DNA of 64,000 bases from Nitrospirota bacterium. GTDB taxonomy: Bacteria; Nitrospirota; Nitrospiria; Nitrospirales; Nitrospiraceae. The position numbers and the translations under genes are program-made. Below are positions 39,247-51,662 of the stretch, one piece after another. The number at the start of each line of letters is the position of its first letter. Position 1 is the first letter of the stretch. The stretch is taken from assembly GCA_040755395.1 (NCBI GenBank), contig JBFMAX010000002.1, forward strand, positions 1-64,000, given 5' to 3'. The notes under the pieces were generated by a model that had not been told where the DNA came from, did not search any database, and saw only the letters and a list, made by a program, of their open reading frames with translations.

Positions 39247-39906
39247 ATGCGGCTGCTCGCGCTCGCCGGAGGCCTGGGGCTGTTCGCCACATGCTCCGTG
39301 GCGCTGGCTGAAGAGCCGACCGGGGAGCGTCCTCTGCTGGTGCTGGAACGTGCCGGAATCGAGACCGCGCTTCCACGGGACACGCGGCCGCTGATCCGCG
39401 CCGACGCCATTGAGCGATTCCTGGACGAATTGGACAGGGCGCCGCCGGACTGGAAGGCCGTGTACGGGCTCGGCCACCATGACCCCGGGCACGACGAGCG
39501 GTTGTTCGAGTTGAATCGGGAACGCGATCGGCGGCGGGAGGGGAATCCGGCGCTTCGACAGCGGGTGACCTTCGTCTGGCCGGGCGAGCTGTCCGGCTAT
39601 GAGCCCGAGAGCGGGGGCTTCCGGGTCGCGATCGGGCCGAAAGTGCATCCGACCCGATGGGGATGGGTCCGGTTCAAGGCCGACGGATTGCCGTCGAATC
39701 TGGTGGCGATTCCTCCAGCAAACCGGCGGGAACCGTTGCGGAGAAAGGTCGCGAACGGCGAGAAGGTCGAAATCGAGGTGGCGATGACCGGCCGCCTCAT
39801 TCCCGAAGAGTCGATCATCTATGACTTCGCCCATGAAGAGGAAGGCCGAGGTCTTATCATGCCGGTGGTACGGATCGAGCAGGTTGAGTATCTCATGGCC
39901 GAGTGA
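39247..39906 (+). CDS. Exported protein, unknown function
   Basis: A 219-residue protein with a classical signal peptide (LLALAGGLGLFATCSVALA, cut before EEPTG). The mature part is charged, with GLGHHDPGHDERLFELNRE, RQRVTFVWPGELSGYEPES and EVAMTGRLIPEESIIYDFAH. It may be a periplasmic beta-sandwich protein. No cysteine is left after processing. The 3' end overlaps the convergent mtnC gene by 14 bases. No family recognised. Confidence 0.6.
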   Translation: MRLLALAGGLGLFATCSVALAEEPTGERPLLVLERAGIETALPRDTRPLIRADAIERFLDELDRAPPDWKAVYGLGHHDPGHDERLFELNRERDRRREGNPALRQRVTFVWPGELSGYEPESGGFRVAIGPKVHPTRWGWVRFKADGLPSNLVAIPPANRREPLRRKVANGEKVEIEVAMTGRLIPEESIIYDFAHEEEGRGLIMPVVRIEQVEYLMAE

Positions 39907-40636
39907 TCGGCGGGAGAGCTGACGGACAGGACGCCGGCTGAGAGAGTTCGCAGAAACTGAGGCCGCGGAAGTCGAGGCTGACAGGATGGCGGGCGCCTTG
40001 GCGGGCGCCCGGGCGAACGATTTGGGTCGTCTTCAAGCCGGCCGCCGCCGCAGCGTCCAGCTCCGGTTCGGCATCGGAGACAAAGAGAATGGCGTCGGGA
40101 AGCAGCGTGAGCCTGCCGGCAATCTGCTCGTAGGAGGCGGCGTCGGTTTTGGCGCCCACGCGGGTGTCAAAGAACTGGGAAAACAGGGGCGTGAGGTCGC
40201 CGTTGGTCGTATGCGCGAGGAGCAGGCGTTGGGCCTGTTCAGAGCCGGAAGAAAAGGTGGCCAGACGAATGCCGTTGTTCCGCCACCGAATGAACATCGG
40301 AGCGACATCCTTGTAGAGTTCGGGTGTGAACGCGCCGGTTTGATACCCCTCCTCCCAGATCATGCCCTGCAGGGCCTTCAGCCCCATGTGCTTGCGGTCT
40401 CCGTCGATCCAACGGGTGAGGAACTCGTGAAGATCCTCGTACGCCGGGCGCAATCCCACCTCCCGTTCCAGGGTGTCTTGGCACAGAGCGGCCCAGGTGA
40501 GGACCGTAGGGTCCTCGCGGTGCTCCCGTAAGAAGGCAGCCAGCCGCCGTCGCGAGTAAGGGAACAGCACCTCACGCACGAAGGCCACGGGGATGATGGT
40601 GCCTTCGATGTCCGTGAGGACGCAGCGAATGGTCAT
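39893..40636 (-). CDS. mtnC: Acireductone synthase (enolase-phosphatase E1)
   Basis: A 247-residue HAD-superfamily enzyme that enolises and dephosphorylates 2,3-diketo-5-methylthiopentyl phosphate in methionine salvage. Visible motifs are CVLTDIEGTIIPVAFV (nucleophile Asp with the MtnC-type D-x-E-G-T), ATFSSGSEQAQR, GAKTDAASYEQI and FVSDAEPELDAA. The ATG at 40636 overlaps the stop of mtnD. The C-terminal 20 residues are Pro/Ser-rich and may be a non-conserved tail. It works directly before acireductone dioxygenase in the pathway. Confidence 0.92.
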   Translation of the reverse strand: MTIRCVLTDIEGTIIPVAFVREVLFPYSRRRLAAFLREHREDPTVLTWAALCQDTLEREVGLRPAYEDLHEFLTRWIDGDRKHMGLKALQGMIWEEGYQTGAFTPELYKDVAPMFIRWRNNGIRLATFSSGSEQAQRLLLAHTTNGDLTPLFSQFFDTRVGAKTDAASYEQIAGRLTLLPDAILFVSDAEPELDAAAAAGLKTTQIVRPGARQGARHPVSLDFRGLSFCELSQPASCPSALPPITRP

Positions 40637-41166
40637 AGGGGCCACCGATAGCGTTGCTCGATTCCGGAATGTGTGTAGTGAGGCACCCAGCCGGCCTGGT
40701 CGGTGAACACTCGAATCGCGCGGACCATCGGCCGCGCGCCGAGGTCGAACCAGTGTTTGGTGTTGGCCGGCACGGAGAGCAGGTCCCCTTCCCGGCAGAG
40801 TACGGCGAACACGTCTTCCTCCGGTCGTTCCGCGTGAAACCAGAACAACCCGGACCCTTCCACGAAGAAGCGCACTTCGTCTTCGGAATGGGTGTGCTCG
40901 CGGAGGAATTTGTCGCGGATCGCGTCCAAATTCGGCGTAGCCGGCGTCACGCGCACGACATCGGCGGCGCGATATCCGCCTTTCTCCATGAACGGCTCGA
41001 GCCAGAGGTCATAGGCGGCCAGGACTTGATCGTCCGTGGCGTCGGCCGGCAAGCCGACGTCCGTCGACCAGCGTTCGTAAAAGATGCCGCGCTCGTCGAG
41101 GAAACGCCGGATCTCGTGCTCGTCCGTCAGGTACACGTTCCTGTCAGGAACTCGAAGCGTGGCCAT
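40633..41166 (-). CDS. mtnD: Acireductone dioxygenase
   Basis: A 177-residue cupin metal enzyme that converts acireductone to the keto acid precursor of methionine. It has REHTHSEDEVRFFVEGSG with the H-x-H-x4-E metal ligands, and LSVPANTKHWFDLG with the last His. The N-terminal half (EIRRFLDERGIFYERW) is typical. Fe2+ gives on-pathway chemistry and Ni2+ off-pathway; sequence does not tell which. It overlaps mtnB at its start by 23 bases and mtnC at its end, forming a compact operon. Confidence 0.93.
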   Translation of the reverse strand: MATLRVPDRNVYLTDEHEIRRFLDERGIFYERWSTDVGLPADATDDQVLAAYDLWLEPFMEKGGYRAADVVRVTPATPNLDAIRDKFLREHTHSEDEVRFFVEGSGLFWFHAERPEEDVFAVLCREGDLLSVPANTKHWFDLGARPMVRAIRVFTDQAGWVPHYTHSGIEQRYRWPL

Positions 41167-41794
41167 GGCTTCTCACCTCCCGTTCGCATTGCAACAAAAA
41201 TTCGAACACCTCCAAGTGGCGCTTGGCCTCCGCCACATTCCTGCCCCAGACATACAGGCCGTGCCCGGCCAGGAGAAACCCGTAGCACGAGTTTTCCCGT
41301 CTGAGATGCGGCTCGATATGAGCGACCAGCGCGTGCATGTCTTGTGAGTTCGGATAAACCGGCAGCGCGACTTCGCAGTCATGGGTCTCCACCCCGTCCA
41401 GGCCTTTCAACAGTTCCCAGCCTGACAGCCGCAGGCATTCCCCCGGACCGGCCAAGCGGGACAACAACGCGGCGGCGATCGAATGGGTATGGAACACGGC
41501 CCCGGCCCCGGCGATCCGGTACAGCATCAGATGCAGCAAGGTTTCCGCGGAAGGCATGAGGTTGAACCCGTTCACCGGCCGGCCGTGCTGATCCACGGCG
41601 AGGATCTGCTGGGGCTCGATCGTCTCCTTGTCCACGCCGGAGCTTGTAATGGCACAGAAGGCGGGCGCGGCGCGCTCGGGAAGCCGGACGCTATAGTTCG
41701 TGCTCGTCCCCGGCGCCCACCCGTTTCGATAGGCCCACCGAGCGATGCCGGCCAGTTGGTCGGCGTAGAGCTTAAAGTCTGAAAATGCGTCCAT
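41144..41794 (-). CDS. mtnB: Methylthioribulose-1-phosphate dehydratase
   Basis: A 216-residue class II aldolase-type zinc enzyme of methionine salvage. APGTSTNYSVRLPE, FNLMPSAETLLHLMLY, AVFHTHSIAAALLSR (metal-binding His pair) and YGFLLAGHGLYVWG match the family. The ATG at 41794 is chosen because the family begins near MDAFSD; upstream ATGs at 41824 and 41854 read through the leader. It is first in mtnB-mtnD-mtnC. mtnA, mtnK or mtnN is not in the window. A strong hairpin lies 58-79 bases upstream. Confidence 0.88.
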   Translation of the reverse strand: MDAFSDFKLYADQLAGIARWAYRNGWAPGTSTNYSVRLPERAAPAFCAITSSGVDKETIEPQQILAVDQHGRPVNGFNLMPSAETLLHLMLYRIAGAGAVFHTHSIAAALLSRLAGPGECLRLSGWELLKGLDGVETHDCEVALPVYPNSQDMHALVAHIEPHLRRENSCYGFLLAGHGLYVWGRNVAEAKRHLEVFEFLLQCEREVRSHGHASSS

Positions 41795-41851
41795 TTTGGA
41801 ATGGCGCTTTCGGTGTACTAGCATCCTTCTAGCACCAGCTTGGATGGGATA

Positions 41852-41873
41852 CACCTGGCGACTCCGCCAGGTG
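41852..41873 (-). promoter_or_regulatory. Perfect hairpin upstream of mtnBDC
   Basis: CACCTGGCG and CGCCAGGTG are perfect 9-bp inverted arms around a 4-base loop. In the mtnBDC direction it lies in the presumed leader, with no T run after it, so it is either an operator palindrome or an RNA hairpin rather than a plain terminator. No SAM-riboswitch core is seen around it. Confidence 0.5.
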
Positions 41874-43250: not shown

Positions 43251-43280
43251 TTGACTCCCCGAAAAACCCCATGCTATAGT
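43251..43280 (+). promoter_or_regulatory. Likely sigma-70 promoter of the ProA-like gene
   Basis: TTGACT (43251-43256) and TATAGT (43275-43280) with 18 bases between, about 105 bases before the ATG at 43385. A short repeat (CACGCATCACG words) lies between promoter and gene. Confidence 0.6.
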
Positions 43281-43384: not shown

Positions 43385-44749
43385 ATGGTTGAAGTTCCCG
43401 TTAAGATTTACATGACGAACGTGTTGAAGAAGGCCCGCGAGGCGCAGCGCCCATTGGCTGTGCTGCCGACCGCTGTGAAGAACCGGGCATTGTTGGGCAT
43501 GGCGGATCGGCTGGCGGCGGACGAGGAGGCCATTCTCGAGGCGAACCTGCAGGATGTGGAGAACGTCGGCAAGACGCTGGAGGGAGAGACGAACCGGGAA
43601 CGTGTGAAAGAAGCGGTCGAACGGGTCCGCCTCACACCTGACGCGGTCAAGGAAATGGCCGACCGTCTGCGACGAATCGCGGACCTAGCCGATCCGATCG
43701 GCGAAGTGACGAAACGCTGGGAGCAGCCGAACGGGATGCAGGTGAGTCGGGTGCGGGTCCCGATCGGCGTGATCGGCGTGATTTCCGAATTTGGACCGGC
43801 CGTGACGACCGAGACGATGGCGCTGTGTCTCAAGTCCGGCAACGTCTGCGTGTTTCGCGCGGCGCCGGAATGGTGGCGGACGCACCAGGTGATCGTGTCC
43901 GCTCTGCGCGAAGCGGCGGAGGAAGCCGGGGTGCCGGCCGGCGCGCTGTCCTTTGTCGAGCGACCGGAAAAAGAGGCGGCGCTCGAACTGATGAAGGCGA
44001 CGAAGATGCTGGACGCGATCATCCCGCGCGGCGGCGCCGGCTTGCGGAAGGCGGTCACGGAACAATCCCGTCTCCCGATTCTTTGCCATGACGGCGGGGT
44101 CTGCCACATCTACATCGACGAAGACGTGGACCTGCCGATGGCGCAGAACATCGTCATCAATTCGAAGCTCCAGCAGCCCTCCGCGTCCAACTCGGTCGAT
44201 ACCTTACTGGTCCACCAGATCACGGGACGGTCCCTGCTGCCCGCGCTGATTCGCCGCCTGCTCGATGAATTCAAAATAGACGTCTTGGGCTGCCCCAAGA
44301 CCTACTCATTGATGGGTACCATGGATATCAGCGGGCACAAATCGGTCAAGCCCGCGGCGGACGACGACTGGGGGAAGCAGTTCCTCTCCAAAACCATCGC
44401 GGTGAAGATGGTCAAGGACATGGACGAGGCGCTGGAGCACATTGCGCGCTACGGTCCGGGGCATACGGATACGATCGTCACCAAGAACTACGACAACGCC
44501 ATGCGCTTCGTGCGGGAAGTCGATTCGAGCGCCGTGCTCGTCAACGCGTCCACGCGGCTGCACGCAGGCGATCACTTCAGTTTGGGCGGCGAAGTCGGAA
44601 CCAGCACCTCACGCCTGCACGCGCGCGGCCCTATCGGCTTGAATGAGTTGACCTGCCAGAAATATGTCGTCTTCGGGGGCGGACAACTCCGCCACCCTCA
44701 TCCGGTGCCCGTCACCTACGAAGACGCGATCATGCTCAAACGTTTCTGA
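43385..44749 (+). CDS. ProA-like aldehyde-dehydrogenase-fold protein without catalytic Cys
   Basis: A 454-residue protein with the overall length and sequence pattern of gamma-glutamyl phosphate reductase (ALCLKSGNVCVFRAAPEWW, KMLDAIIPRGGAGLRKAV, RGPIGLNELTCQKYVV). However, the segment that in ProA holds the nucleophilic Cys (P-x-V-C-N) reads QQPSASNSVDTLLVH, with Ser near residue 269. The ESRPNVT region reads EFGPAVTTE. It is therefore a divergent paralogue, probably unable to do the standard NADPH-dependent reduction. It is followed 3 bases later by a methyltransferase gene. The start is the ATG at 43385 or 43412. Confidence 0.8.
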   Translation: MVEVPVKIYMTNVLKKAREAQRPLAVLPTAVKNRALLGMADRLAADEEAILEANLQDVENVGKTLEGETNRERVKEAVERVRLTPDAVKEMADRLRRIADLADPIGEVTKRWEQPNGMQVSRVRVPIGVIGVISEFGPAVTTETMALCLKSGNVCVFRAAPEWWRTHQVIVSALREAAEEAGVPAGALSFVERPEKEAALELMKATKMLDAIIPRGGAGLRKAVTEQSRLPILCHDGGVCHIYIDEDVDLPMAQNIVINSKLQQPSASNSVDTLLVHQITGRSLLPALIRRLLDEFKIDVLGCPKTYSLMGTMDISGHKSVKPAADDDWGKQFLSKTIAVKMVKDMDEALEHIARYGPGHTDTIVTKNYDNAMRFVREVDSSAVLVNASTRLHAGDHFSLGGEVGTSTSRLHARGPIGLNELTCQKYVVFGGGQLRHPHPVPVTYEDAIMLKRF

Positions 44750-44752
44750 GCG

Positions 44753-45952
44753 TTGCTTACCCAACTCCACGACGCGCTCCTCGTTCATCTTGCCTGGTGG
44801 GGACTTCGACGCTTCGATTCCGACGCGACCTATTTTCAATGGCAACGCGAGCGCCTGAGCCCGGCCGATCTGGCCCTTTTCAACGAGCGCGTTGAGCGGA
44901 AACGGGCACCCGGCGCCGGCGCCGAGGAGGAAAAAGCGTTCTATGACCTTTCGGCTCGCCCGCACGTTGTCCCTGTGCTCTACAGTCAGCGGTACGACTA
45001 CTATGTCGAGGTCGGACCGCGGGTCGCTTCGCGGATCGGCGACGCTCGGTCCGTGCTGGATTTCGGATGCGGGATCGGCATCCTGACCACGTTTTATGCA
45101 CGGCAGTTCCCCGACCGTGCTTTTCTGGGGATCGATCGGTCACCGGCCTCCATCGAGCTTGCGCGCCGACAGGCCGCCGCGCTCAGCCTGGACAATGTCC
45201 GGTTCGAATGCGCGGACGTGGAGCAGAGCCCACCGGCTGGTACGTTCGATTTGATTATCGCGACCCATGCGTTGGTGCAGGCGGAGCAGGACCCCGGCCT
45301 TCCCAGTCAAAGCTGGCGCACGTTCGAGCGCCCGCGCGATCCTCGGCTCCAGTCCGAATTCGAGCAGCGGACCGGTGTGGGAAGGAGGCTGGACCGGCTC
45401 ACCGCCGCATTGGTTCCGAATGGGCGCATGATCGTGTTCGAGAAGACGAGGACGCTGGCGCGGCGGATTCCGTTCCAGCGCGCGCTGGCGGCGCGCGGTC
45501 TTGGCCTGATCGAGCCACCGGAGTTGATCCGCTACTTTCTCGTCGAAGAGATCGCCGACGACGGACCGTTCTATGTCTTGGGGAAGGGGATGCCGCGCGG
45601 CCTTGACTGGGATGAATCGCCGGAGCCCGACGAGGGCCTTCCGTTCGATCGAACCAAGCGGAAACCCGGGTCAGCCGATCCGCATGCGCCGCTCTATGAA
45701 AACCATTGGCCTTCCGCGCAATTGGTCTGGGAACAGCTTCAACACAAGCATCTCTTCAAGGAGGTCACGCGCCAAGAACCGGATGGCCGTCAACTCCACG
45801 TCGAATTAGGCACCGCCGAGAGCTATTCCTATCTCTACTGCGCCAACACCTTCGACCAGCGGCAGATCGTGATCGTCGAATCTCAACGCCCCGAATTGGT
45901 CGAAACGTATTATCGGGAAATCGTGAGCGGGATGGAAACTGGGCAGGTCTGA
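44753..45952 (+). CDS. Class I SAM-dependent methyltransferase with extra C-terminal domain
   Basis: A 399-residue protein read from a TTG 3 bases after the ProA-like stop. The N-terminal 80 residues are helical. The SAM site is SVLDFGCGIGILTTFYARQF (about 100-120), followed by FLGIDRSPASIELARRQ, and TFDLIIATHAL with an acidic motif. About 130 residues at the C-terminus (ENHWPSAQLVWEQLQHKHLF, SYSYLYCANTFDQRQIVIVE) form an added domain I do not recognise. The substrate is unknown. Tight coupling to the ProA-like gene suggests a shared pathway. Confidence 0.72.
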   Translation: MLTQLHDALLVHLAWWGLRRFDSDATYFQWQRERLSPADLALFNERVERKRAPGAGAEEEKAFYDLSARPHVVPVLYSQRYDYYVEVGPRVASRIGDARSVLDFGCGIGILTTFYARQFPDRAFLGIDRSPASIELARRQAAALSLDNVRFECADVEQSPPAGTFDLIIATHALVQAEQDPGLPSQSWRTFERPRDPRLQSEFEQRTGVGRRLDRLTAALVPNGRMIVFEKTRTLARRIPFQRALAARGLGLIEPPELIRYFLVEEIADDGPFYVLGKGMPRGLDWDESPEPDEGLPFDRTKRKPGSADPHAPLYENHWPSAQLVWEQLQHKHLFKEVTRQEPDGRQLHVELGTAESYSYLYCANTFDQRQIVIVESQRPELVETYYREIVSGMETGQV

Positions 45953-46135: not shown

Positions 46136-48022
46136 ATGAGAATCGAATATTCCAAAGGCCAACGGGCGAGCGCGGAGCTGATTCTGCTCCATCGCCAGAG
46201 GTCCGAAGCCACCAGCGGGCGGAAGATGAAGGTCCTGCTGATCTTTCCCCCCGACTGGTACCCTTCCGAGCCGTATTTAAGCCTACCCACCCTGACCGCC
46301 GTCCTTCGCGCCGCCGGGCACACCGTGATCCAAAAAGACGTGAACCTCGAGATGTACGACTGGTACTTCAGCGAGGATTTCCTCAAACGCGTCCTGCGAA
46401 AGGTGCCGCAACAGCTCGATCGGCTGAGGAAGCTGGCGAAGAAACGTGAGTTGGAAGCGTGGGAAATGGACCTCCAGCTCGCGTTGTGCGATCTGACCCG
46501 CCAGCGAATCACCGAGCTGATCGAAAAGGCGGAACGGGCGAAGCGGATCGTGCGCAGCCAGGAGTTTTATGACATCGAGAAACTGGAGTGGGCCATCAAC
46601 GCGTTCCAAGAAGTCACCGCGGCGATCTCCCTGGTCTATGCCCCGGCGCGGATCTGCATGCCGCCGATGGAGACCGATCTCTCCTATAAAGTCTTCATGT
46701 CGTCCGAGGTGATGGATGCGGTGCAGGACACGCAGGTTAATGTGTACCGGGATGTGTTCGAGCACCTCGTCAAGCCGGTCATCGAAGCCGAACGTCCGGA
46801 TGTCGTCGGCATTTCCATCGTCCTGCAGCAGCAGCTCTTCTCCTCCATGACCTTCTGCGCGCTCATCAAGCAGCACTTTCCCCAGATTCACGTCACGATC
46901 GGCGGCAATACGGTGACACGGCTGCGCGATGTCCTGCCCGCCTCGCCGCTGTTCTCCTACTTCGACAGTGCGGTGGTGTATGAAGGAGAGACGGCTTTTC
47001 TCCAACTGGTGGAAGCCGTGGGAGCCAAGCGCGATCTCGCCGGCATCCCGAACCTCATCTATCGCGATGCCGCCGGCGTGCATACCTCGGAACTCAGCTA
47101 TGCGGAAGACATGGGCTCGCTGCCCCCTCCCGATTTCGACGGTCTCCCGTTGGAAAAGTATTTCGTGCCGGACCGCATCCTGCCATACCTCGCGACGCGC
47201 GGCTGCTACTGGGGTCGCTGCGAGTTCTGCGATCACGGCGAAGGGTACACCGCCGGCTACCGGACGAAGAAGATCGAACAGATCATCGAGGACATCCGGT
47301 TCATCAAGACCAAGTACAACACCCGGCATTTCCACTTCACCGACGAATCTTATCCTCCGGCGTTGTTCCGAAAGCTGGCCCGCCGACTGGTCGAAACCAA
47401 GATGGACATCATCTGGACCACGCACATGCGGTTCGAAAAAAGCCTGCTTGATGAGGCGGTGTGGCAGGACGCGCGGGATTCCGGGTGCCGGTATCTCCAT
47501 TTCGGCTATGAGTCGGGAAGCGAGCGGGTGCTCAAGCTGATGGACAAGGCCACGACGACGGAGGTGATCAAGCGGCATCTCGAACTCTCCGCCGGGGTGG
47601 GGATCTGGAACCATGTGATGGGGTTCTTCGGATTTCCCGGGGAGACGCGGGAGGAGGCCTGGGAGTCCGTTCGGTTCCTCGAGGACAATAAGGAGCATGT
47701 CCATTCACTCGGCTTCGGAACCTTCGACCTGAGCAAACACACCCCTGTCGCGAAGCATCCGGAGAAATGGGGCGTCATTCCCTACAAGAATCCCGACTGG
47801 GACCTGGCCCTGGACTATTACTACACCGTGCGCGAAGGGCTCAGCGTCGAGGAGGCGGAACGGGTGTTCGAAGAGTTCGAGCGCAGCCATTATCCGGGGT
47901 GGGACCTGCGCATCTTCATCCGGGAATACATCTTCCTCTATATCGCTCGGTTCGGGCTGAGCAAACTTCAAGACCTCCAGTTCAATCGGGATCGAATTCC
48001 CGCCGGGACGGCGTCGTCTTAG
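46136..48022 (+). CDS. B12-binding-type radical SAM protein, copy 1
   Basis: A 628-residue enzyme. The N-terminal domain (MKVLLIFPPDWYP, GHTVIQKDVNLEM, VVGISIVLQQ, VTIGGNTVTR) has the cobalamin-binding Rossmann pattern, without the DxHxxG motif. The radical SAM domain carries GCYWGRCEFCDHGEG near 355-364, with CX4CX2C spacing rather than CX3CX2C. Then come HFHFTDESYPPALF, FGYESGSERVLKLMDK and FFGFPGETREEA. A closely related gene follows 4 bases later. Relatives do methylations, ring rearrangements or cyclisations on unknown metabolites or peptides. GAGGAGG lies 11 bases before the ATG. Confidence 0.85.
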   Translation: MRIEYSKGQRASAELILLHRQRSEATSGRKMKVLLIFPPDWYPSEPYLSLPTLTAVLRAAGHTVIQKDVNLEMYDWYFSEDFLKRVLRKVPQQLDRLRKLAKKRELEAWEMDLQLALCDLTRQRITELIEKAERAKRIVRSQEFYDIEKLEWAINAFQEVTAAISLVYAPARICMPPMETDLSYKVFMSSEVMDAVQDTQVNVYRDVFEHLVKPVIEAERPDVVGISIVLQQQLFSSMTFCALIKQHFPQIHVTIGGNTVTRLRDVLPASPLFSYFDSAVVYEGETAFLQLVEAVGAKRDLAGIPNLIYRDAAGVHTSELSYAEDMGSLPPPDFDGLPLEKYFVPDRILPYLATRGCYWGRCEFCDHGEGYTAGYRTKKIEQIIEDIRFIKTKYNTRHFHFTDESYPPALFRKLARRLVETKMDIIWTTHMRFEKSLLDEAVWQDARDSGCRYLHFGYESGSERVLKLMDKATTTEVIKRHLELSAGVGIWNHVMGFFGFPGETREEAWESVRFLEDNKEHVHSLGFGTFDLSKHTPVAKHPEKWGVIPYKNPDWDLALDYYYTVREGLSVEEAERVFEEFERSHYPGWDLRIFIREYIFLYIARFGLSKLQDLQFNRDRIPAGTASS

Positions 48023-48026
48023 AGCG

Positions 48027-49979
48027 ATGAGCCACCTGATCCACATCGAGGGAGCGAGTTCCAAGCGAGGGAACGGGCGCAAGCTCAAGGCCATGCTCCT
48101 GTTCCCGCCGGAGTGGGTGCCGACCGCCCCGTACCTGGCCTTGCCCTGCCTCGCCGCCGTCCTTCGGGAACACGGACACGACGTGATCCAAAAAGACGTG
48201 AACATCGAGATGTACAACCACTTTTTCAGCGACATGTTCCTCATCTGGGTCAAAGCCCGGATGGGCATGCAGTTGAAGGAGTTGGAAGACAAGGAACAGG
48301 CGGGATGGCTGACCGAACAGGAGGCGGATCAGAAGGCCTGCCTGGAGGCCAAAGCCTCGATAGATGTGTTCGAGCTGGCGGAACGGGCCGAGCGGGCGAA
48401 GCGCATCGTCCACGGAGAGGAATTTTACGACGCCGACAAGCTGGAGTGGGCGCTGAACACGTTCCGCGAGGTGATGCAGTACATTTCCGCCGCCTACTAT
48501 CCGGCGTCGCTGGTGTTCTACCCGATGGAGAGCAATTTAGGGTACCGGCCCGGCGTGTCCAAAGAGGTCTTCGCCTGCTTGGACGACGACCAGGTGAATG
48601 TCTATCGGGATGTTTGCCGGCAACTGGTACTGCCCGTCGTCGGCAGGGAGTCGCCCGACGTGGTCGGGGTCTCGATCGGGACGCAGATGCAACTGCTGGC
48701 CGGCCTGACCTTCTGCAAAATGATCAAGGAAGCGTTCCCGCAGGCTCACATAGTAGTCGGCGGCAACGTCATCACGAGATTGCAGGAAGAGTTGCCGAAG
48801 CACGAGCGGTTTTTCACCGAGGTGTTCGATTCGGCCATTCTCTACGAGGGCGAACATGCCTTGTTGTGGCTGCTCGAAGCGCTGAGCGGGGAACGGGACC
48901 TGGCCTCGGTGCCGAACCTCATGTATCGCGACGCGCAAGGGATTCATACGAGCAACGAGATCTATACGGAGAAGACGACGGCGCTGCCGCTGCCGGACTT
49001 CGACGGCTTGCCGCTTGACAGCTATTTTGTTCCGGCCCGCATCCTGCCCTATCTCGCGACCAGAGGATGCTATTGGGGGCGGTGCACGTTCTGCGACCAC
49101 GGGCAGGGCTATTTCGACCAGTATCGGGGGATGCCGGCGCACCTGGTTGTGGAGCAGGTCAAAGCATTGAAAGACAAGTATCGCTGCGAGCATTTCCTGT
49201 TCTCCGACGAATCCTATCCGCCGGCGCTCTTCAAGAAGGTCACGCAACTGCTCGTCGAGCAGAACGTCGGCATCAAGTGGACGACGCTGATCCGCTTCGA
49301 GGAAACGCTCCAGGATCCGGAGATCTGGAAGTTGGCCGCGCGGTCCGGATGCTGCACCCTTTACTACGGAATGGAATCGGCCAACGAGCGGGTGCTGAAT
49401 CTGATGGACAAACACGTCAAAAAGAGCGTCATCGAACACAACCTGAAAGAGGCGGCCAAGGCCGGCATCTGGAACCACGTGATGGCCTTCTATGGGTTTC
49501 CGGGCGAGACTCGCGAGGAGGCGCTGGAGACCAGGCAGTTCATTCTCGACAATCAGCCGTACATTCACTCGGTCGAACTCTTCTATTTTGTCGCCTATCG
49601 CCATACGCCGATGGTCCGGAATCCCGAGAAGTTCGGGATCACTATTCACAAGCAGGAGGAATACGACCTGCCGCTGGATTACTACTACACCTTGAACGAG
49701 CCAGGCGGCATCTCCTGCCTCGATGCGATGCAGCTTTGCGAGGAGTTCTATCAGAACGATTTCCAGCCCTGGGCCGTGCGGGTAAACGCCCGTGAGCACG
49801 TCTTTCTCTACATTTCCAAGTACGGCACCAACCGGCTGCCGCAGATCTACGCGCAGCGGAAGGAAGGCGTTGCGGACGGCGTTTCCGGGCTGGTGACGTG
49901 GCCGGTCGCGTTGGGCGAGGGCGAGGGGAAGGACGGCGAGCCGTCGATGACCCGGGTGGTCAGCCATGCGATCTCCTAA
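48027..49979 (+). CDS. B12-binding-type radical SAM protein, copy 2
   Basis: A 650-residue paralogue of the preceding gene, colinear over its length: KAMLLFPPEWVPTAPYLALP, GHDVIQKDVNIEMYNH, RGCYWGRCTFCDHGQG (about 347-356), FLFSDESYPPALFKK and AFYGFPGETREEA. The same CX4CX2C spacing is kept. It differs most in residues 70-130 (linker) and in a 30-residue C-terminal tail rich in Gly and Glu. Tandem duplicates with a conserved active site suggest two related substrates or successive steps. A hairpin of repeat R2 type follows the stop. Confidence 0.85.
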   Translation: MSHLIHIEGASSKRGNGRKLKAMLLFPPEWVPTAPYLALPCLAAVLREHGHDVIQKDVNIEMYNHFFSDMFLIWVKARMGMQLKELEDKEQAGWLTEQEADQKACLEAKASIDVFELAERAERAKRIVHGEEFYDADKLEWALNTFREVMQYISAAYYPASLVFYPMESNLGYRPGVSKEVFACLDDDQVNVYRDVCRQLVLPVVGRESPDVVGVSIGTQMQLLAGLTFCKMIKEAFPQAHIVVGGNVITRLQEELPKHERFFTEVFDSAILYEGEHALLWLLEALSGERDLASVPNLMYRDAQGIHTSNEIYTEKTTALPLPDFDGLPLDSYFVPARILPYLATRGCYWGRCTFCDHGQGYFDQYRGMPAHLVVEQVKALKDKYRCEHFLFSDESYPPALFKKVTQLLVEQNVGIKWTTLIRFEETLQDPEIWKLAARSGCCTLYYGMESANERVLNLMDKHVKKSVIEHNLKEAAKAGIWNHVMAFYGFPGETREEALETRQFILDNQPYIHSVELFYFVAYRHTPMVRNPEKFGITIHKQEEYDLPLDYYYTLNEPGGISCLDAMQLCEEFYQNDFQPWAVRVNAREHVFLYISKYGTNRLPQIYAQRKEGVADGVSGLVTWPVALGEGEGKDGEPSMTRVVSHAIS

Positions 49980-49988
49980 CTGCGCTGA

Positions 49989-50028
49989 AGCGGGGACCCG
50001 TTGCATTCCTTGAGCAACGGGTCTCCGG
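49989..50028. repeat. R2-like hairpin after the radical SAM pair
   Basis: GGGACCCGTTGC and GCAACGGGTCTCC are inverted around ATTCCTTGA. The arm word CAACGGGT is that of repeat R2 (42871 and 61783). It stands between convergent genes and could end transcription, but no T run follows. Confidence 0.55.
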
Positions 50029-50078
50029 TGAAGCGTATTTCGTTCGCGAGATACGAGACACATGACATGGAGAATGCT

Positions 50079-50342
50079 TCACGAGGGATGCGGTTGGTCC
50101 GGCGGTTCTTGTCCAACCAGCCATGCCGAAAGGAGCGTGTAGGCGGCCTCGACCTCTTTCGTCATCGCTTCAGCTTTCTTGTACATCTGCATGTACTTGC
50201 GGGGGTTGTTGGTCAGGTTGGCATACCGGTGGGGATGCCACGTATGCAGCAGTTCCCGGCGTTTCCGATCAAGCAGTTCACGTGTGATGGGTAACGAGAG
50301 GCCGAATAGTTTCAGCGCGTGATCGAGGTCTGATTGCTCCAT
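50079..50342 (-). CDS. J-domain-like protein with HPH instead of HPD
   Basis: An 87-residue protein resembling an isolated J-domain: helix II RELLDRKRRELLHTW followed by the loop H36-P37-H38, then helix III AEAMTKEVEAAYTLLSAW. In DnaJ proteins the HPD tripeptide is needed to stimulate DnaK; here Asp is His. It may thus be a scaffold or have lost Hsp70 contact. It is the only minus-strand gene in this stretch, flanked by radical SAM genes. It could also be an unrelated helical hairpin, but the spacing fits J-domains. Confidence 0.6.
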   Translation of the reverse strand: MEQSDLDHALKLFGLSLPITRELLDRKRRELLHTWHPHRYANLTNNPRKYMQMYKKAEAMTKEVEAAYTLLSAWLVGQEPPDQPHPS

Positions 50343-50417
50343 AGTGTGAAGGCTTAGATCAACCGCCGGTCCACATCTCTCAGCGAGTCTGGCAAAGAGT
50401 CGAAGAGCCTGTCAATC

Positions 50418-51662
50418 ATGCCCCTCAGCGCTCCGCTTCCTATCTTGCAAGCAACACCGGTCCTCAAAGGCAAAGACTACCGGGAGGTTCTCAGGCGTGA
50501 AATGGACGGGGGCAAAATCCCTCTGAGCCTGGGCAAGAGTTGTCCCGTCAAGTGCGAATTCTGCTATGAGATCGACCACACGTATCGGGAAACCGCCGAC
50601 CCGCCGAAGACGACCCAGGAAGACTGGGAGTACATTCTCGATTACATCAACAAGAAGCCGACCGATCCCCAGCAGTTCTGGTGCCTGGGGGGAAATGAAT
50701 ACATGGAATGGACCGATTTGTTTCTGCATCCCAAGGCGATGGAATGGCTGGAAGACTTTCTGAAGTACACCGACAAGAATGTCACCTTCTTCACTGTCGG
50801 GTTCGTGCATGTGCCTAAGATCCACCAACTGGCCGAGCAGTACCCGGGACGCATCAATTTTGAGTTGTCGGTGATCACGCTCAGCGATTATCGGGAACGG
50901 CTCATGCCCCACGCTCCGGCGGTGAAGCACCTGATGAAGGTCTTGGACGGTCCGGCCGTCTCCTCGGCCAATTTCTACGCCTTCGACGACTACACGATGT
51001 CCAAGGATGCGGTCGCGATTTCCGCCGTCAACCGGAAGTGCGTGCTCTGGATGGGCTGCCTGACCCCGGTGCGGGGGCTCAAGGAAGAGACGGCCGCGCT
51101 TATGCGGCAGGGGAGGAAATATCTTCCGCGCGAGGCCGAGCGCGTCTATGACGCGGGATTGCCGAATATGCAGACCATCCATACGGAAGCCTCGATCACG
51201 GCGTTTTTGAACCGACGGCGGATCGTCAGCCTGTTTGATTCGCTGGAATTGGAAAGGAACGACACGGTGGTGATGGCGAAGAGCGTCCACAAGATCCTCA
51301 CCATGTACCGGAAAAATCGGGCGCGGTTCCTCATGGTGCCCAACGCGACCTTGGGCGGAGACTCGGACTGCACAGTCCTCTTGACCTTCGACGACATCGC
51401 CCGGCGTCTGAAGGGGCAAAAGATGATCCATATCCCCAAGTGTATGATGCAGTCGGGGCGCGGGCCGTACACGGACATTGCCGGGGTCTCGCTGGATCAG
51501 TTCATCAAGAAGACCGGTGTGAAGGTCAGGGTGCTGCACCGGATCGATACGAAGTTCGCCAACAAACGGCTCTACCGCAACGGCCACCTGCGCAACTACA
51601 TCGAGGACTACGTCCGCAACCCCCTCACGCAGTCCTACGAAGCCCTGCCCATCTCCGCTTAA
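50418..51662 (+). CDS. Radical SAM protein, unknown substrate
   Basis: A 414-residue enzyme with the canonical motif SLGKSCPVKCEFCYEIDHT (Cys42, Cys46, Cys49, CX3CX2C). After the motif come YILDYINKKPTDPQQFWCLG (a GGE-like patch), NEYMEWTDLFLHPKAMEWLE, and a C-terminal half with NRKCVLWMGCLTPVRGLKE and HIPKCMMQSGRGPY. The latter have additional cysteines that may hold an auxiliary cluster. It is unrelated in detail to the two B12-type proteins upstream. It lies 75 bases from the divergent J-like gene. Substrate not predictable. Confidence 0.8.
   Translation: MPLSAPLPILQATPVLKGKDYREVLRREMDGGKIPLSLGKSCPVKCEFCYEIDHTYRETADPPKTTQEDWEYILDYINKKPTDPQQFWCLGGNEYMEWTDLFLHPKAMEWLEDFLKYTDKNVTFFTVGFVHVPKIHQLAEQYPGRINFELSVITLSDYRERLMPHAPAVKHLMKVLDGPAVSSANFYAFDDYTMSKDAVAISAVNRKCVLWMGCLTPVRGLKEETAALMRQGRKYLPREAERVYDAGLPNMQTIHTEASITAFLNRRRIVSLFDSLELERNDTVVMAKSVHKILTMYRKNRARFLMVPNATLGGDSDCTVLLTFDDIARRLKGQKMIHIPKCMMQSGRGPYTDIAGVSLDQFIKKTGVKVRVLHRIDTKFANKRLYRNGHLRNYIEDYVRNPLTQSYEALPISA

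Follow-up and report, generated by a model that had tools for sequence, protein, structure and literature searches.

A ProA paralogue lacking the catalytic cysteine is a probable non-catalytic subunit of the adjoining methyltransferase in two Nitrospirales families

The window analyzed here, a stretch of 64,000 nucleotides from a Nitrospirota bacterium (contig JBFMAX010000002.1), encodes a homologue of ProA in which the catalytic cysteine has been replaced and which is followed directly by the gene of a class-I methyltransferase. We propose that this protein is probably a pseudoenzyme derived from ProA that serves the adjoining methyltransferase as a dedicated non-catalytic subunit. Sequence comparisons show a duplication, the loss of the cysteine in every paralogue, purifying selection, the gain of new termini, and constant adjacency and matching distribution of the two genes. 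The features discussed below are located in Table 1.

Table 1. Features of the paralogue-methyltransferase locus (positions within the window)
Feature	Position	Strand	Basis
Sigma-70-like site with extended -10 (TTGACT-N18-TATAGT)	43251..43280	+	Consensus match only, 10/12
ProA paralogue without catalytic Cys (454 aa)	43385..44749	+	Translation, structure alignment, ProA profiles, tree
Paralogue-specific N-terminal motif M-V-E-V-P-V-K	43385..43408	+	E3 and P5 invariant; entropy 0.63 bits
E-F-G-P-A-V in place of ProA E-S-R-P-N-V	43787..43804	+	Alignment; starts at E135
Ser268 codon (TCC) at the nucleophilic Cys position	44186..44188	+	Alignment to solved ProA structures
C-terminal tail P-H-P-x-P-x-x-Y-x-D-A-x-M (residues 438-454)	44696..44746	+	8 invariant alignment columns
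Class-I SAM-dependent methyltransferase, 399 aa, with orphan C-terminal domain	44753..45952	+	Constant paralogue neighbour; Methyltransf_25
B12-binding radical SAM protein	46136..48022	+	After the pair in 8/26 neighbourhoods, window included
Second B12-binding radical SAM protein	48027..49979	+	Same limited distribution, 8/26

Translation of the open reading frame gives a full ProA homologue, which scores 463.7 bits with NF001221 (curated cut-off 289) and 361.4 bits with TIGR00407 (curated cut-off 317.45), so the length and fold of ProA are retained. The AF2 model (pLDDT 81.8) aligns with the ProA structure 1o20 over 410 residues, with a Z of 42.0 and an rmsd of 3.6, and keeps the aldehyde dehydrogenase (ALDH) fold, with low confidence at the active-site turn, at residues 392-416 and in the tail. 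The genome of origin (G000; 4.11 Mb, 100% complete) also encodes a canonical ProA at C2:258980-260221, approximately 214 kb from the paralogue, which is 54% identical to it and carries the cysteine in the sequence QRPSTCN. Proline synthesis in this organism therefore need not rely on the altered copy.

In the alignment with the solved ProA structures 1o20, 8zok and 4ghk, Ser268 of the segment P265-S266-A267-S268-N269 (44177-44191) falls exactly on the cysteine of PGTCN, PSTCN or YGTCN. This position is Ser, Pro, Thr or Ala in 29 paralogue loci (28 full-length and one fragment) and Ala, Pro or Ser in 18 further loci, with a cysteine in none of the 47 paralogues read; all 38 canonical Nitrospirota ProA and the 11 outgroup ProA in our tree keep it. 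Since the cysteine is absent from 47/47 paralogues, its loss in the window protein is more than chance. The motif E-(S/A)-R-P-N-V, whose R137 and N139 are invariant in ProA, has lost both residues in the window protein, and Tyr134 of ProA, just before it, is an invariant Ser134 in the paralogues. The first-pass annotation had described a protein of ProA fold and length with Ser in place of the nucleophile and E-F-G-P-A-V in place of E-S-R-P-N-V, and these observations hold in our alignments.

Proline and alanine are incapable of serving as nucleophiles, so the paralogue is not a Ser-for-Cys enzyme, and a replacement nucleophile of this kind was discarded as a general explanation. C148 and C303, the only cysteines invariant among the paralogues, were likewise considered and rejected as alternative nucleophiles; both are present in the canonical ProA of the same genome and hence are not newly gained. 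In ALDH chemistry, a protein devoid of such a cysteine cannot make the thioacyl intermediate of ProA, and the alignments indicate that the paralogue very likely lacks ProA activity. The curated profile scores would give it the annotation of glutamate-5-semialdehyde dehydrogenase, as expected if it were an ordinary ProA, or a decaying duplicate, in which the cysteine change reflects an error or a neutral loss, or is compensated by the serine or by another cysteine. This explanation is extremely improbable, considering the 47 homologues without the cysteine, many with Pro or Ala at the site, the presence of a true ProA in the genome, and a pairwise dN/dS of about 0.1 (0.06-0.12 for the paralogue versus 0.05-0.07 for canonical ProA of the same genomes). 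No internal stop codons occur in the full-length paralogues listed among 41 related genomes. A sequencing error or a decaying gene was accordingly rejected.

The remainder of the active site has been remodelled unevenly. The canonical ProA of the window's family (f1) and of a second family (f3) have R137, N139, R264, C240, D394 and E272 as invariant residues; among 27 aligned paralogues R137 is kept in none, N139 in 1, R264 in 2, and C240 and D394 in 9 each, and E272 is Asp in all 27. Residues K261, R391, R158 and G216 are invariant in the same 27 sequences, and the ProA pocket residues that persist are K261, R215, G216, R391 and mostly N269. In Drosophila P5CS, C598 serves catalysis and R525 contacts the cofactor adenine (PMC8963878), R712 and D715 are reported to bind gamma-glutamyl phosphate, and N599 adjoins the cysteine (PMC11061531). 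An alignment with plant P5CS places C598, R525, R712, D715 and N599 at positions 268, 196, 391, 394 and 269, respectively. Of the two positions matching the gamma-glutamyl phosphate-binding residues of P5CS, Arg391 is kept in 27/27 paralogues and Asp394 has disappeared from 18/27, the window protein having Ala there. Position 196, an Arg in ProA, is occupied by Lys in 18/27 paralogues and by Pro or His in 3/27.

The persisting pocket residues are compatible with a retained ligand-binding role or with an unrelated catalytic one. The second option would make the paralogue an active enzyme with a new, cysteine-independent chemistry (for example acyl phosphate hydrolysis or transfer, or a reaction of pyridine nucleotides) that shares a short pathway with the methyltransferase. 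The invariant K261, R391, R158 and G216, the mostly kept N269 and the new near-invariant core residues S134, W163, R221 and D272 are in line with such an enzyme, and pseudoenzymes with migrated catalytic residues offer a precedent (PMC10211241). We regard it as unlikely, given the loss of R137, N139, R264, C240 and mostly D394, the free variation of position 268 among Ser, Pro, Ala and Thr, the fact that C148 and C303 are not new, and a core that is under less constraint than that of ProA.

This relaxation is apparent in the column entropies. The NADP-binding region reaches 1.24 bits in the paralogue against 0.59 in canonical ProA, the catalytic region 1.09 against 0.68, and most of the paralogue core lies at 1.1-1.5 bits. 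The lowest means belong to the two termini (0.63 and 0.67 bits; 0.83-1.50 in other segments). At the N-terminus, M-(V/P)-E-V-P is nearly or fully invariant among paralogues, and canonical ProA has an unrelated, variable sequence at this position; the 17-residue C-terminal tail is likewise nearly or fully invariant in the paralogues and is absent from canonical ProA. In our reading, constraint has moved away from the active site and onto the termini, as would befit a protein kept for interaction.

The distribution of the paralogue was determined in a sample of 246 genomes drawn evenly from the phylum, with counts taken from the score table. It was found in 68/68 f1 and 17/17 f3 genomes, with scores of 550-829 bits, and in none of the 161 genomes outside these families, where the top score (504 bits) was at the level of canonical ProA. 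A set of 41 related genomes gave the same picture, with paralogues in f1 and f3; f2 and f4, which belong to this order as well, had none. In 100 Pseudomonadota genomes no score exceeded 450 bits, and a contig scan needing short exact peptides, which found only four paralogues and may have missed distant ones, returned from outside the phylum only Cys-bearing ProA of at most 43% identity. In the IQ-TREE phylogeny all paralogues form a single clade (100/100) on a stem of 0.59, sister to the canonical ProA of f1 and f3 (grouping 100/95), and the ProA of f2, f4 and others fall outside this grouping. Read most simply, the tree implies a single duplication in the common ancestor of f1 and f3, followed by fast change and then by renewed constraint. 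The catalytic residue is thus lost across orthologues (47/47) under purifying selection, and a Cys-bearing canonical ProA, presumably active, is kept separately in the same genome and in its relatives, two properties expected of a pseudoenzyme; together they strongly support the changed function suggested in the first-pass annotation.

Next to the canonical proA lies a gene whose distribution was also followed. It encodes a 599-aa protein (L102:7181-8980, minus strand; G000:C2 ~257181-258980) that follows proA with a 4-nt overlap and has no Pfam or NCBIfam match. Homologues of 48-68% identity are found beside the canonical proA in 15/16 other f1 and f3 loci searched. The final third of the protein may represent a degenerate methyltransferase-like domain (profile comparison with the methyltransferase, probability 36%). 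Further homologues in f2 and some f1 genomes (L187-L192) are not adjacent to proA; they miss the first 29 residues and have no Pfam match.

The methyltransferase gene begins with a TTG codon three bases past the stop codon of the paralogue, and a homologue lies directly downstream of the paralogue, on the same strand, in 26/26 fetched neighbourhoods across f1 and f3; a simple motif test found a methyltransferase-type frame beside it in 18/20 short extra loci. One f1 genome (G013) has two copies of the dead ProA (L056 and L085), each followed by a methyltransferase. In some genomes the two genes lie as much as approximately 280 nt apart, and strict translational coupling is therefore not a general feature. 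A profile search recovered full-length methyltransferase homologues in f1 and f3 only, with no close homologue (60 bits at most) in f2 and f4. The two f1 genomes without it (G006 and G007) have a completeness of 70-76% and also carry no paralogue, and the paralogue is missing in G002 and G014 because the methyltransferase there sits at a contig edge. The three-base gap reported in the first-pass annotation holds in the window, and the link it suggested with the methyltransferase is supported by a pairing that extends across both families. The promoter it assigned to the paralogue fared less well: a sigma-70-like site does lie 104 nt upstream of the ATG, but it is one of three such sites seen across the scanned 3.3 kb, against 0.7 expected, and its role as promoter of the gene is only plausible.

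Among the 26 neighbourhoods no third gene is linked to the pair in both families, and the upstream genes differ by family. The radical SAM genes downstream were rejected as part of the core unit, being present in only 8/26. The region 46136-51662 encodes two B12-binding radical SAM proteins in tandem and then a third, radical-SAM/DUF512-like protein; the trio occurs after the pair in 6-7 related genomes at ~76-84% identity and is more conserved than the pair, and its closest models, RiPP C-methyltransferases and PhpK P-methyltransferases, are all below cut-off. The opposite strand carries, at 39893-41854, what resembles a methionine-salvage cluster: three neighbouring genes with domains of class II aldolase, acireductone dioxygenase (ARD) and HAD hydrolase. 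This cluster is not conserved beside the pair in other genomes. TIGR03478, the nearest model tried for nitrite oxidation, had no match in G000, G003, G004, G010, G012 and G016, all of which hold the pair; in the same rough test G017, which also holds it, gave a short weak match and f2 genomes matched, none above cut-off. As far as this rough comparison goes, the pair has no link to nitrite oxidation.

The methyltransferase matches Methyltransf_25 (E 7.5e-16) and has an intact SAM motif I (DFGCGIG), whose residues D103, G105, C106, G107 and G109 are conserved. It shares this motif and a Rossmann domain with class-I methyltransferases (Methyltransf_25/31; DnrK-type), and differs from the named families in reaching no equivalog cut-off and in its orphan C-terminal domain. 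The best NCBIfam equivalog was BioC (43 bits versus a cut-off of 184.95), and by curated cut-offs the protein is not assignable to BioC, PrmC, UbiG or another named subfamily. The best Foldseek matches, by fold only, were DnrK-type O-methyltransferases. The C-terminal domain (~80 aa) has no Pfam match; it is present once in the window protein and duplicated in longer methyltransferases, e.g., L076:10612-12120 (hhalign probability 96%, E 2e-9). The AF2 model has a pLDDT of 71.7 overall and its C-terminal part is too weak to name the domain.

Taken in order, the proposed history would begin with a duplication in the ancestor of f1 and f3 that gave a second ProA, which would then have lost its thiol chemistry to become a pseudoenzyme encoded with the class-I methyltransferase as a two-gene unit, and would now act as its non-catalytic partner. 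The ALDH-fold core would provide a stable oligomeric scaffold, with the N-terminal motif and the C-terminal tail as putative contact sites for the methyltransferase. A physical complex of the two proteins is likely, and the remodelled ligand pocket could possibly gate methyltransferase activity. Co-occurrence and adjacency are nevertheless no proof of a complex, and the pair could share a pathway without contact. The first-pass suggestion that the paralogue binds a phosphorylated or aldehyde intermediate for the methyltransferase appears weakened, because D394 is mostly lost, as are R137, N139 and R264, although R391 is invariant; the conserved new termini would be better explained by a scaffold or allosteric role. 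A narrower version, which we hold as tentative and rather doubtful, is a two-component Nitrospira-type methyltransferase in which the dead ProA is an obligate ALDH-fold subunit docking via its C-terminal tail and methylation is under metabolite control; the controlling ligand would then be a glutamate/proline-pathway metabolite or NADP(H).

The paralogue might instead tune proline synthesis as an inactive subunit in mixed oligomers with canonical ProA (or ProB), leaving the methyltransferase as a separate or modifying activity. In favour of this are the constant co-occurrence of both ProA copies within genomes, the conserved ALDH core, and the precedent of ALDH2, whose wild-type form is inhibited by an inactive variant in heterotetramers (PMC10211241). 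Such a role is quite unlikely, as the constant genetic partner is the methyltransferase rather than proA or proB, the canonical gene is remote in the window's genome, and the two proteins share only the identity given above, with remodelled and extended termini.

The proposed methyltransferase subunit can be compared with known systems. ProA itself (NF001221, TIGR00407; 1o20, 8zok; the GPR domain of P5CS) shares with the paralogue whole-length homology, the ALDH fold, ancestry through duplication and the pocket residues K261, R391 and G216; the paralogue differs by lacking the catalytic cysteine, the ERPNV motif, R264, C240 and usually D394, by its new N-terminal motif and 17-aa C-terminal tail, and by having a methyltransferase, not proB, as partner gene. 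Human ALDH16A1, the pseudoenzyme of the aldehyde dehydrogenase family, is likewise an ALDH-superfamily protein without its catalytic residues and is believed to work via protein partners (PMC10650815). It belongs to another ALDH subfamily and organism, whereas the paralogue is ProA-derived, has a fixed neighbour gene and is taken to be inactive from its sequence. The trypanosome prozymes are dead paralogues that activate AdoMet decarboxylase, deoxyhypusine synthase and the arginine methyltransferase TbPRMT1 (PMC5201418, PMC3663545, PMC10211241). They resemble our case as dead duplicates under selection with a proposed role as activator or stabilizer of an enzyme, which for TbPRMT1 is a methyltransferase; prozymes, however, activate their own live paralogue, and the partner proposed here, whose activation we infer, is an unrelated methyltransferase. 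A search of a literature library found no published description of this paralogue.

If the proposal is correct, its unusual feature would be that the dead partner and the enzyme it serves come from separate enzyme families. Genes of this clade would be annotated as ProA, whose reaction is almost certainly beyond them, and the misannotation would carry over into models of proline metabolism for these bacteria. With a duplication that is dated, a nucleophile lost in every member, a newly gained tail and a methyltransferase gene as fixed neighbour, the family offers a clean natural case of how an enzyme of metabolism may turn into the non-catalytic subunit of another to which it is unrelated.
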